This document shows, one piece after another, positions 25,663 through 28,656 of a DNA stretch of 32,594 nt. A model generated the notes under the pieces. It saw only the letters and a list, made by a program, of their open reading frames with translations, made no database searches and was not told where the DNA came from. The stretch is from positions 1-32,594 of the forward strand of contig CALFNB010000024.1 in NCBI GenBank assembly GCA_937902425.1, read 5' to 3'. The position numbers and the translations under genes are program-made. The first letter of the stretch is position 1. Each line of letters starts with the position of its first letter. This DNA comes from an uncultured Acetobacteraceae bacterium (GTDB lineage Bacteria; Pseudomonadota; Alphaproteobacteria; Acetobacterales; Acetobacteraceae).

Positions 25663-26681
25663 CACGCGTTCCGCCACGCCGGCAAGATTCGCAGTGCGTT
25701 GCCGCGACCGATCGCCGCCAGTTCTTCGTCGTTGAACCGCGCGGTCAGGCCAGCGACGTGTTCCGCGCTGGTTCGGTACGGAAAGTCCGTGCCGAACACG
25801 ATTTGTGACAATGGCACGAGTTTGGCCAGCGCCTGAATGGTGATCTCGTTGGCGACCTGAGCCGTATCGTAAAAGAAACGGTTCAGTTCGTGATCGACCA
25901 TGTCGCGGGTGAACTTGCCTTTGTACGGCGGGGTAGTGACCATCTGAATACGCAACCGCTCGGCGACCGACGTGATCACACCGCCGCCGTGCGAAAAAAT
26001 GAAGTTGATGTCGCTGTAGCGCGCCGAGGCGCCGCTGAAGATCAGGCTGATGAGCGTGCGTGTCGTATCGGCGCCCCAGTCCACGGCGGCGTCCGGCACG
26101 CCTTTCACCAGATTGACACAGCAGCTGGGACTCATGGGGTGGGTATACACGACGCCTTTTCGGCGGTTCAGTTCATCGAACACCGGCGCGAATTCCGGGT
26201 ATCCCAGCCATTTGTCGCCGTAATTGGTCATCATACCAACGCCGTCGACCTTCAACGTATCGAACGCGTATTCGATCTCCTTCAGGGTTTCGTCGATATA
26301 AGGCATCGGCAACATCGCGAAGACACCGAAACGGCCGGGGTGATCCTTGGCCAGTTGCCGCGCCCATTCGTTCGACTCGCGCGCGACCTTGGCCGCTTCG
26401 GGTGCGGGCAGAAAGCCAACCTGCGGCGGCATCGGCGAGGTGATGGCGGTGGCTGTCCCCGCCTTGTCCATATCCTCAAGCGATTTCTCGGGCGTCCAGG
26501 ACACCATTGGCGGATTGTCGAGTTTCGCACGTTTGACCGCGTCGACCCAGGCCGGGGGAACCAGATGATGATGCACATCGATGAATTTGTCCTTCGGCGC
26601 GGCATGCGCACCCGGCGCGAAGACGCTGGCGAGGCCGCCAAGCCACACGTGCCTGCGCCCGCAAACGCAAGGCTGGTTCAT
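25662..26681 (-). CDS. Tat-exported metal-dependent amidohydrolase (amidohydrolase 2 family)
   Basis: The protein has 339 residues from ATG at 26679-26681, which is supported by GGGAGG seven bases upstream. The frame extends further upstream only as a shadow of the crotonase gene. A likely twin-arginine signal lies at residues 8-28: GRRHVWLGGLA, then a short hydrophobic core and AHA-A, which would send the folded enzyme to the periplasm. The hydrolase domain follows: FIDVHHHLVPP (His37, His39), VVYTHPMSP, FIFSHGGGVI and IVFGTDFPYR with the metal-binding Asp. ACMSD-like decarboxylases and lactone hydrolases share this fold. Its ATG overlaps the crotonase stop as ATGA, so the two are translationally coupled. 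Confidence 0.9.
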   Translation of the reverse strand: MNQPCVCGRRHVWLGGLASVFAPGAHAAPKDKFIDVHHHLVPPAWVDAVKRAKLDNPPMVSWTPEKSLEDMDKAGTATAITSPMPPQVGFLPAPEAAKVARESNEWARQLAKDHPGRFGVFAMLPMPYIDETLKEIEYAFDTLKVDGVGMMTNYGDKWLGYPEFAPVFDELNRRKGVVYTHPMSPSCCVNLVKGVPDAAVDWGADTTRTLISLIFSGASARYSDINFIFSHGGGVITSVAERLRIQMVTTPPYKGKFTRDMVDHELNRFFYDTAQVANEITIQALAKLVPLSQIVFGTDFPYRTSAEHVAGLTARFNDEELAAIGRGNALRILPAWRNA

Positions 26682-27463
26682 GATTTTTCCTCCCGTTTCC
26701 GCCGCCGTTGTTCGACGAACGCGCCCATCAGGCGTTTGGTTTCCTCGCTGCCATGCGCGGCGGCGACGGCGCGGATGCCCTGCTGGATCGCATCCGCGAT
26801 CGACATCCGTTCCCAGTCGTGCATCAGCTCTTTTTGCGCCCGGATCGCGTGCGGACCGGCGGACAGGATCGCGGCGACCCAGTCCTCCACCGCCGCGTCG
26901 AGTTCCGTTGGCGGAACGATCCGTTCGACGAGGTGGCAATCGGCGGCCTCTCGGGCGTCGATGTGCCTGCCGGTGAACACCAACTCCCGGGTTTTGCCCC
27001 AACCGATCAGCCGCGGAAGCAGACAGGCCTCCATGCCGGACGGCAGGCCGAACAGCACCTCCGGCATGCCGAAACGCGCGGTGTCGGCCGCGGCGCGCAT
27101 GTCGCAGGAGGCGGCGATTTCCAGTCCGGCACCAAAACAATAGCCGTTGATGCGGGCGATCACCGGTACCGGCGCGCGGCGGATCGCCTCGCACACGCGA
27201 TGGGTCAGGAACGGTCCTTCGTAGGCATGCTCCGGTTCAAATGTCGCCATTTCCGCAATGTCGGCGCCACTGATGAACGATCGGTCGCCGGCGCCGGTCA
27301 ATACGATCACGCGCAGGTCCGGTTGCGCGGACACGCGCTCGATCGTTTCCGCCAGTTCCCGCTTGCCGGGATTGCCCAGGGTGTTGCGGCGCGGGGCGTT
27401 GTTGACCGTGACCGTCGCGACGCCGCGGCTGTCGGTGGTGGCGAGAATCAGATTTCGCGTCAT
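26678..27463 (-). CDS. Enoyl-CoA hydratase/isomerase (crotonase) family protein
   Basis: The protein has 261 residues. The oxyanion-hole motif is FISGADIAEM (63-72), the second loop is INGYCFGAGLEIAASCD (105-121). Both acids used by classical hydratases are present with the usual 20-residue spacing, Glu115 and Glu135 (in FGMPEVLFG). This favours true enoyl-CoA hydration over other crotonase reactions, although CoA substrates vary widely. The C-terminus is very basic (FVEQRRRKREEKS). It is upstream of, and overlaps by four bases, the exported amidohydrolase, an unusual pairing of a cytosolic CoA enzyme and a periplasmic hydrolase. The ribosome site is not evident. A large palindromic element begins about 40 bases before its start. 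Confidence 0.9.
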   Translation of the reverse strand: MTRNLILATTDSRGVATVTVNNAPRRNTLGNPGKRELAETIERVSAQPDLRVIVLTGAGDRSFISGADIAEMATFEPEHAYEGPFLTHRVCEAIRRAPVPVIARINGYCFGAGLEIAASCDMRAAADTARFGMPEVLFGLPSGMEACLLPRLIGWGKTRELVFTGRHIDAREAADCHLVERIVPPTELDAAVEDWVAAILSAGPHAIRAQKELMHDWERMSIADAIQQGIRAVAAAHGSEETKRLMGAFVEQRRRKREEKS

Positions 27464-27501
27464 GAGGAGAGGGTCCGGTCAAAGCAGTGTGCCGTCAAGC
27501 G

Positions 27502-27739
27502 CCGGGGTTTCACCCCGGACCCCGACCAAGAGGCGCTGCCTCTTGGAACTCCGCCAAGGACAGTGGTCCTTGGAACCATTGATTTGGTTGGTTCTCTGAG
27601 GAGGGCCGACGCGGACCTTGCAAGGTCTCCGTTGGCCCTCCTCAGAGAACCAACCAATGGACAGATTTCAAAGGGCCTCGCCCTTTGACGGAGGTCCAGG
27701 AGGCAGCGCCTCCTGGCGGGTTTCAGGGCAGCGCCCTGA
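27502..27739. repeat. 238-bp symmetric palindrome cluster (seven hairpins)
   Basis: Seven inverted repeats lie in a row. The left side has stems 27502-27508/27512-27518, 27526-27534/27538-27546 and 27554-27561/27566-27573. The centre is a long hairpin with 24-base arms at 27584-27607 and 27634-27657, closing on the palindrome GACCTTGCAAGGTC (27614-27627). The right side has stems 27668-27676/27680-27688, 27696-27704/27708-27716 and 27723-27729/27733-27739. Left and right hairpins are in mirror order, and spacers such as AACTCCG and ACCTCCG (right side read in reverse) match, so each side is a copy of the same three-hairpin cassette facing inward. The centre of symmetry, 27620.5, fits all of it to within one base. 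It lies beyond the PEP-CTERM stop and upstream of the crotonase start. Confidence 0.9.
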
Positions 27740-27744
27740 CGCTT

Positions 27745-28374
27745 TCACCCCCGCCGCCGGACGAACCGCAGCCCCGCGAAACCCACGCCGAGAACAGCGA
27801 ACGAGGCTGGTTCCGGTACCGGTGCGGTATCGAACGCGACCTCACCGAGATTGACGCTGGTCCCCCCATGTCCCGAGTTGATCTGCAATCGAACGAATTC
27901 GCCTGCCCCCGAGACGCTGAAGGTCTGAGCGCCAAGACCGATCACCGCGTTGAAGGAGCCCAAAGCCGTCACCCCGGACGTGAACCCGGCGTCCAGCGCG
28001 GAACTCAACGTAAAGCTGTTGACCGCGAGGAACGTGTTTTGCGTCCACATGGCGAATGTTGATATCGAGTAGTCACTCCCCAGGTCGAACTCCAGGTAAC
28101 CAGGCATCGTATTGGCACTGCTGGCCCAACCGGTCGAAGCCGAGACCACGGCATGCGTGGGAGCCAGGTTGATGTAGGTTTCAAAGTCGGTCTGGCCGCT
28201 GATGAAGCCGACCGACAGTCCCGACTGGTCGATGAGATGACCGGTCGAGCCCCCCGCCGTGCCGAGCGTATTGCCGACGACCGCGACCGGCGACCGGATC
28301 GTCCCGGCGTGAGCGGGCGCTGATCCGGCGAAGCAAAGCACTACCGCGCCCGCCAGCCAGCGTTGCATCTTCAT
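27745..28374 (-). CDS. PEP-CTERM sorting-domain protein, secreted
   Basis: The protein has 209 residues from ATG at 28372-28374; residues further upstream in the same frame are non-coding and include tandem repeats. A signal peptide is clear: MKMQRWLAGAVVLCF followed by AGSAPAHA-G. The mature part is rich in Ser, Thr, Gly and small residues (GYLEFDLGSDYSISTFAMW; TFSVSGAGEFVRLQINSG) and resembles a beta-sandwich or discoidin-like surface domain. Residues 186-209 are a PEP-CTERM tail: VPEP, then a hydrophobic helix (FAVLGVGFAGLRF) and RRR. Exosortases (EpsH/XrtA) cut such tails, and these systems accompany exopolysaccharide loci. No exosortase gene is in the window. It sits just upstream of the palindrome cluster, which may serve as its 3' end. 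Confidence 0.88.
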   Translation of the reverse strand: MKMQRWLAGAVVLCFAGSAPAHAGTIRSPVAVVGNTLGTAGGSTGHLIDQSGLSVGFISGQTDFETYINLAPTHAVVSASTGWASSANTMPGYLEFDLGSDYSISTFAMWTQNTFLAVNSFTLSSALDAGFTSGVTALGSFNAVIGLGAQTFSVSGAGEFVRLQINSGHGGTSVNLGEVAFDTAPVPEPASFAVLGVGFAGLRFVRRRG

Positions 28375-28530
28375 TTTTAGATGCCCATCTCCGAAATAAT
28401 GATCCACCTTGTGCTGTCGCGAATATTTCATTCCAAAGGATTGCAAATCCATTGCGAATGTTCGGCTTACAACAAATTTCATCAGATAACGTTCACCTGG
28501 GACGCTATTGGAACGCGCAGCTTCAATCAC

Positions 28531-28620
28531 GTTCGTGCCGTCGAACACGGCGGCGGGCACGTTCGTGCCGCCGAACACGGCGGCGGGCACGTTCGTGTCA
28601 CCGGACACGATGGCGGGCAC
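28531..28620 (+). repeat. Three tandem 30-bp direct repeats
   Basis: Three adjacent units of exactly 30 bases start at 28531, 28561 and 28591. Each begins GTTCGTG and ends GGCGGGCAC. Units 1 and 2 differ at one base; unit 3 differs at several. They lie between the PEP-CTERM gene and the DsbA-like gene, about 160 bases upstream of the PEP-CTERM start. On the minus strand the 30-base period is in phase with codons and would read as TNVPAAVF-type repeats, but no start or ribosome site supports translation. They may be regulatory-protein sites or a simple tandem array. Confidence 0.9.
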
Positions 28621-28656
28621 ACCAAGCCGGTGTGGCGCACCCGCCAAGGATCGATG

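Follow-up and report, generated by a model that had tools for sequence, protein, structure and literature searches.

The window analysed here, a stretch of 32 594 nt from an Acetobacteraceae genome, contains an ordered string of hairpins between two genes, and the question raised by this locus is whether such a string is a unique local structure, an RNA or one copy of a mobile repeat. The original prediction described six short hairpins and one long central hairpin arranged in mirror symmetry about position 27620.5, and likened them to REP/BIME elements.

Anatomy and folding of the window element

We observed that the hairpins follow each other in the order H1-H2-H3, long centre, H3-H2-H1. The features of the element and of its two neighbours are:

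26678-27463, minus strand: neighbouring enoyl-CoA hydratase/isomerase gene (PF00378)
27497-27744, no strand: whole mirror-paired palindromic element, 248 bp, located between the start of the hydratase gene and the stop of the PEP-CTERM gene, with family matches
27497-27501, no strand: left outer end AAGCG, inverted with respect to 27740-27744
27501-27584, minus strand: left three-hairpin cassette (model R1, 87.0 bits)
27502-27518, no strand: left hairpin H1
27526-27546, no strand: left hairpin H2
27554-27573, no strand: left hairpin H3
27584-27657, no strand: central long hairpin with arms 27584-27620 and 27621-27657
27657-27740, plus strand: right three-hairpin cassette (model R1, 92.9 bits)
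27668-27688, no strand: right hairpin H3
27696-27716, no strand: right hairpin H2
27723-27739, no strand: right hairpin H1
27740-27744, no strand: right outer end CGCTT, inverted with respect to 27497-27501
27745-28371, minus strand: neighbouring PEP-CTERM protein gene; its stop codon adjoins the element and its start codon is approximate

When the six short hairpins are reflected about 27620.5, each falls on its partner with an offset of at most 1 nt. The ungapped inverted identity over 2 × 123 nt about this point is 0.593, compared to a mean of 0.266 (sd 0.043, maximum 0.439) at 843 other centres in the window, which confirms the predicted mirror symmetry. The central hairpin pairs at 34 of its 37 positions. 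An independent repeat finder reported arms at 27514-27575 and 27667-27728 (62 nt, 74% complementary) together with the central 37-nt arms. The outermost 5 bp of the element are inverted and adjoin the PEP-CTERM stop codon at 27745, and the G+C content is 0.621 for the element and 0.618 for the window.

The element fills the gap from the start of the hydratase gene (27463, minus strand) to the stop of the PEP-CTERM gene (27745). The dsbA and hydratase genes are adjacent in 18 of 20 relatives (L011-L030), and R1 found no cassette in that interval; the hits in L011 (a divergent pair with a gap of 72 nt) and in L015 fall outside it. This site does not isolate the element, because in the window the PEP-CTERM gene also sits between dsbA and the hydratase gene. 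Two further observations were made in this neighbourhood: the interval from dsbA to the PEP-CTERM gene (28371-28656) shows, by eye, tandem copies of a GC-rich repeat of ~30 nt, and in one relative (L030:2322-3000) a PEP-CTERM gene other than that of the window immediately precedes a hydratase gene whose first part is missing.

Folding of both strands had been proposed as a check. For the region 27464-27745 we calculated RNA folding energies of −192.4 kcal/mol on the plus strand (z −14.4) and −183.7 kcal/mol on the minus strand (z −12.4), and 0 of 200 shuffled sequences folded as well on either strand. The covariance model R1 describes a single cassette and derives from 37 left and right cassettes in nine genomes of the host genus. 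Within this alignment 96.9% of 801 cells are paired and 16 of the 22 stem pairs show two-sided changes; the observed covariation was reached by 0 of 500 shuffles on four measures and by 11 of 500 on a fifth, the number of pair types. The expectation that pairing is kept while the stem sequences change is borne out by these values. The covariation need not prove selection, as template switching or recombination between arms likely drives the turnover of the stems.

A cis-acting RNA or terminator-like structure under selection on the transcript, instead of mobile DNA, would be consistent with such a stable fold on both strands and with the two-sided covariation, and copies often lie directly after stop codons. 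Against this, presence at the same site varies between relatives, copies also occur within tight gene pairs (e.g. RND-type permease and lipoprotein genes), the flips and copy-specific centres described below are unexpected of a conserved RNA, and no Rfam family reached its gathering score in the window. We regard such an RNA as most improbable, and a known RNA family as the identity of the window element was rejected on the Rfam result. As a separate observation, a 24-nt hairpin with the core GGNCCGC...GCGGNCC is nested in the loops of different element hairpins (L004, L007, L047, L048, L053, L061, L066, L071, L122), and in the host-genome DNA examined 9 of its 10 distinct contexts lie inside mirror elements.

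Copies, orientation and insertion sites

The original prediction suggested a mobile or dispersed family, against which a single unique copy would have argued. Using blastn with the window element against the host genome (6.82 Mb in 667 contigs, 89% complete) we obtained 72 matches, several of them full-length at 80-90% identity, and R1 found 68 cassettes at E ≤ 1e-3. A unique structure was therefore rejected and the dispersed family upheld. Regarding the orientation of neighbouring cassettes within 400 nt, 38 of the 68 form 19 divergent pairs, while no tandem and no convergent arrangement was observed. The 30 unpaired cassettes comprise 17 situated at most 130 nt from a contig end, 4 that a transposon cuts off, 2 that overlap as hits on the two strands and 7 with weak matches (E 1.1e-6 to 9.6e-4). 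Single cassettes are thus rare in the host genome. A search of the genome for single cassettes and paired forms had been proposed as a check; on this count the unit is the mirror pair. Two host-genome contigs (L010 and L053) have the left flank and left cassette in common (74.5% over 251 nt) and differ in their centres.

Beyond the host genome, an R1 match at E ≤ 1e-5 was found in 101 of 200 sampled genomes of the family, representing 59 of 102 genera; since 22 candidates were scored per genome, the copy counts per genome are lower bounds. The paired form is present beyond the host genus as well, for instance in G152, G208, G250 and G070. The link to Acetobacteraceae suggested in the original prediction holds as far as titles go: the best protein relatives are MAGs of 76-83% identity, mostly titled Acetobacteraceae. 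The window element had no match in plasmids or phages, a relative's copy had none in plasmids, and one pattern of 26 letters had no exact hit among viral contigs. A segment of ~5 kb between two oppositely oriented copies was seen to be the same in two species (L186, G208:C18:232500-241000, and L261, G262).

Comparison of strains for presence or absence had also been proposed, and presence does vary between relatives. Sites A and B, both in genus g121, carry the element in two species (G152 and G260) and lack it in three (G262, G254 and G250), with 4 nt at site A in G262 compared to 255 nt in G152; R1 found no cassette on the empty loci. Site C separates the RND-type permease and lipoprotein genes of a tight pair; G208, G260, G152 and G250 carry an element there, G262 carries half of one, and G257 and G255 carry none. 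The moving unit is the whole mirror pair, with outer inverted ends, both cassettes and the central hairpin. Two further candidate sites were less informative: the flanks of C301 were dropped as an empty-site comparison, as its two genes are nonadjacent in relatives that carry both on one contig (e.g. G006), and at the C30 site G006 has a 132-nt spacer in which R1 found no cassette and which is too divergent to place a breakpoint.

At site C we also noted that in five of five species (L167, L173, L174, L175, L176) the lipoprotein frame runs uninterrupted from its 5′ end across the element up to the lipobox. The open frame persists despite differing insert lengths; the five species share ancestry, and of the 204 frames that cross 34 copies, 70 are open by chance.

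The gain at sites A and B of a small noncoding unit of ~300 bp with outer inverted ends is what is expected of a MITE. A DDE or serine transposase would move such an element by recognising its outer inverted ends, and homologous recombination between the arms would produce the flips and inverted flanks; the genome-wide transposase search covered the Y1 family alone. On the other hand, no direct target duplication was seen at either site, where the empty relatives are only ~74-82% identical, the ends differ from copy to copy, and we saw no longer copy that carries a transposase between its cassettes; the 4-kb interruption of one copy is a distinct IS1595-type transposon that has ends of its own. 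We therefore consider this origin unlikely.

In-place flips, inverted ends and a possible mechanism

By comparing the filled sites we found that parts of the element are turned in place. At site A the cassettes of G152 and G260 agree in inverted order at 60/62 and 59/62 positions, and in direct order only at 48/60 and 50/62. At site B the cassettes agree directly (58/60 and 59/62) while the 35-nt centre agrees at 33/35 positions when inverted versus 19/35 when read directly. For a broader survey we took copies with a 35-nt spacer and arms matching at 19 or more of 22 positions, from a subset of the copies of each genome (27 copies in G152, 34 in G260, 10 in G208 and 2 in G262), and counted a pair as orthologous if both flanks match over more than 200 nt. 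This yielded 13 G152/G260 pairs with flanks of 90-98% identity. In 7 of them the cassettes, the 35-nt centre or both are inverted and in 6 neither is; the cassettes are inverted in 5 pairs and the centre in 3, one of these weakly (0.66 versus 0.49). Turned cassettes with an unturned centre occur in 4 of the 13 pairs and require two events or ectopic gene conversion. Four of 8 further pairs with more distant genomes show an inversion, these pairs being non-independent.

The flips might instead be artefacts of short-read draft assembly at inverted repeats. The G152 and G260 assemblies are drafts of 80 and 90 contigs, and many host-genome copies end contigs, as seen from the 17 of 30 unpaired cassettes close to contig ends mentioned above. 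But the left and right cassettes differ, as the direct agreement at site A indicates, so that misassembly could turn them only by way of a long outer repeat free of mismatches, and at this site the outer ends are imperfect; at site B the arms agree directly and the centre alone is turned. We judge an assembly origin of the flips to be rather improbable.

The inverted similarity does not stop at the hairpins. We observed that the two ends of a copy are alike as inverted repeats for ~40 nt beyond them. Flanks read outward were identical at 16 or more of 26 positions in 10 of 34 copies, compared to 2.3% of random pairings, in a threshold test devised after the flanks had been inspected; the other 24 of the 34 copies, including the one in the window, fall below the threshold. 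The excess, calculated from 37 copies, is strongest in the first 28 nt and reaches the baseline by ~45-50 nt. Copies with flanks running off the locus were left out, which gives the 34 and 37 copies of the two tests. In the window copy the inverted similarity covers just a few outermost bases. The inverted ends at sites A and B lie mostly within the inserted DNA. At site B in G260 they extend into the host coding sequence, where the left CACGTCTGACGCTG is present in inverted form on the right. The empty site A is already a weak palindrome, and the host part of the inverted ends could be this pre-existing palindrome; more generally, the inverted ends could instead reflect a preference for palindromic targets.

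Identity within and between copies was compared in two genomes. The two central arms are more similar within a copy (0.866 and 0.865) than between copies (0.711 and 0.690), whereas left and right cassettes are less similar within a copy (0.667 and 0.660) than between copies (0.729 and 0.710), the highest values being those of left-left and right-right comparisons. As arms and cassettes behave oppositely, we infer that a full unit with distinct halves is copied and that its centre and ends are reworked in each copy. Because the left and right cassettes remain distinct from each other, we rejected a snap-back origin, in which one of them would serve as the template for the other.

Taken together, our findings point to a non-autonomous mobile palindromic element of Acetobacteraceae that is remodelled at its own hairpins, through either template switching or recombination, a reading to which we assign a probability of about 60%. 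Inserted element DNA is predicted from the folding to fold back on itself. Template switching or recombination at this fold would keep the central stem paired within each copy, and the same process may extend the inverted similarity into the flanks and may flip the 35-nt centre or the cassettes in place; the similarity and the flips themselves are seen in the alignments. Insertion probably involves an enzyme or a host replication step acting on the folded single strand. The parts of two earlier reports drawn on here describe that template switching between inverted-repeat arms homogenises the arms and inverts the spacer (PMC8604942), and that hairpins are created and maintained by template switching (PMC8794818). 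The cassettes speak against this reading, as they are not homogenised within copies (0.667 versus 0.729 between copies). Neither a transposase nor an excision product was found for the element, Y1 being the transposase family searched genome-wide. A bolder version, which we hold to be possible if doubtful, is a mobile palindrome that can do without its own transposase. Polymerase template switching on its fold would copy it to new sites and rebuild it in place, leaving host DNA at the ends in inverted, not direct, copies and flipping nested segments like switches.

Comparison with known repeat systems

The original prediction likened the cluster to REP/BIME elements, though larger and more ordered, and proposed to look for an associated TnpA-REP (Y1) transposase. 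In the portion of PMC3116915 drawn on here, REPINs are described as REP doublets that form a hairpin, show compensatory changes, include few singlets and are mostly extragenic. The mirror element resembles them in its conserved inverted ends, its less conserved folding spacer, its compensatory changes, its mostly extragenic location and the inverted doublet as replicative unit, which we observed in the 19 divergent pairs among 68 cassettes. Unlike the REPINs of that description, its ends are three-hairpin cassettes of ~83 nt and the whole measures ~250-300 bp, no RAYT dependence was found for it, and its copies flip in place. A REP/REPIN, in which a REP-associated Y1 tyrosine transposase moves two short palindromes in inverted orientation, would be in line with these likenesses and with the one Y1_Tnp gene of G006, a relative that carries copies. 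However, Y1_Tnp is absent from the host genome (0 genes at 89% completeness) and from 15 of 16 relatives. Nor did 40 genomes of the family show an association: the gene occurs in 5 of the 20 element-rich ones and in 3 of the 20 that lack a model match. The tag GTAG was found within 6 nt of H1 at 0 of 68 ends and CGTC at 5 of 68, and six hairpins with a centre in ~250 bp stand against REPs of 20-40 bp. A RAYT-driven REP was rejected on these grounds; an association with a Y1 transposase was not supported, and we consider mobilisation of this kind highly improbable.

If confirmed, the preferred reading of a fold-reworked mobile palindrome would describe a mobile DNA element that spans its bacterial family and exceeds REPs in size and order, in a family where Di Nocera and colleagues report, in the part of their paper considered here, that CGTC REPs are missing (PMC3733652). 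It would also provide natural species pairs that display palindrome insertion, the upkeep of stem pairing and flipping, and would open two questions to testing: by what means palindromic repeats spread when no transposase is known for them, and whether a mutation process, rather than selection, can generate compensatory changes in hairpins. A prior description of the mirror element was not found among the open-access PMC papers that the literature searches listed.

Several further systems share single traits with the element, each compared here with a portion of the respective source. Like the REPs tagged by CGTC or GTAG (PMC3733652), it consists of short palindromes with variable stems, and the CGTC elements are mostly head-to-head dimers; unlike them, it has rare or no tags, loops of mostly 3-4 nt and hairpins in strings of three. 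With the Rickettsia palindromic elements of ~150 bp (PMC10969869) it may share the ability of a palindromic repeat to lie in frame in genes, an open frame through the mirror element having been observed at one site, but it differs in sequence and in its mirrored multi-hairpin anatomy, and the examined copies are mainly intergenic. The 4-kb IS1595-type unit recalls the IS elements which target REP sequences (PMC1525189), as this transposon joins the mirror element at the same GGACAGAT site in three copies; IS1595 and IS1594 are not named in the main text of that paper. The unit (L124:3403-7371, G000:C418:10902-14870) has inverted ends CGGTATTATGTAGC..., encodes an IS1595-type transposase (PF12762, E 6.4e-35) and interrupts one hairpin element, with GACAGATT as an apparent duplication of 8 bp. 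Its end joins a hairpin element at GGACAGAT in four of six genomic places (also L086:2633 and L088:1731) and does not do so in two. In anatomy and behaviour, the mirror element is nearest to REPINs and MITEs.
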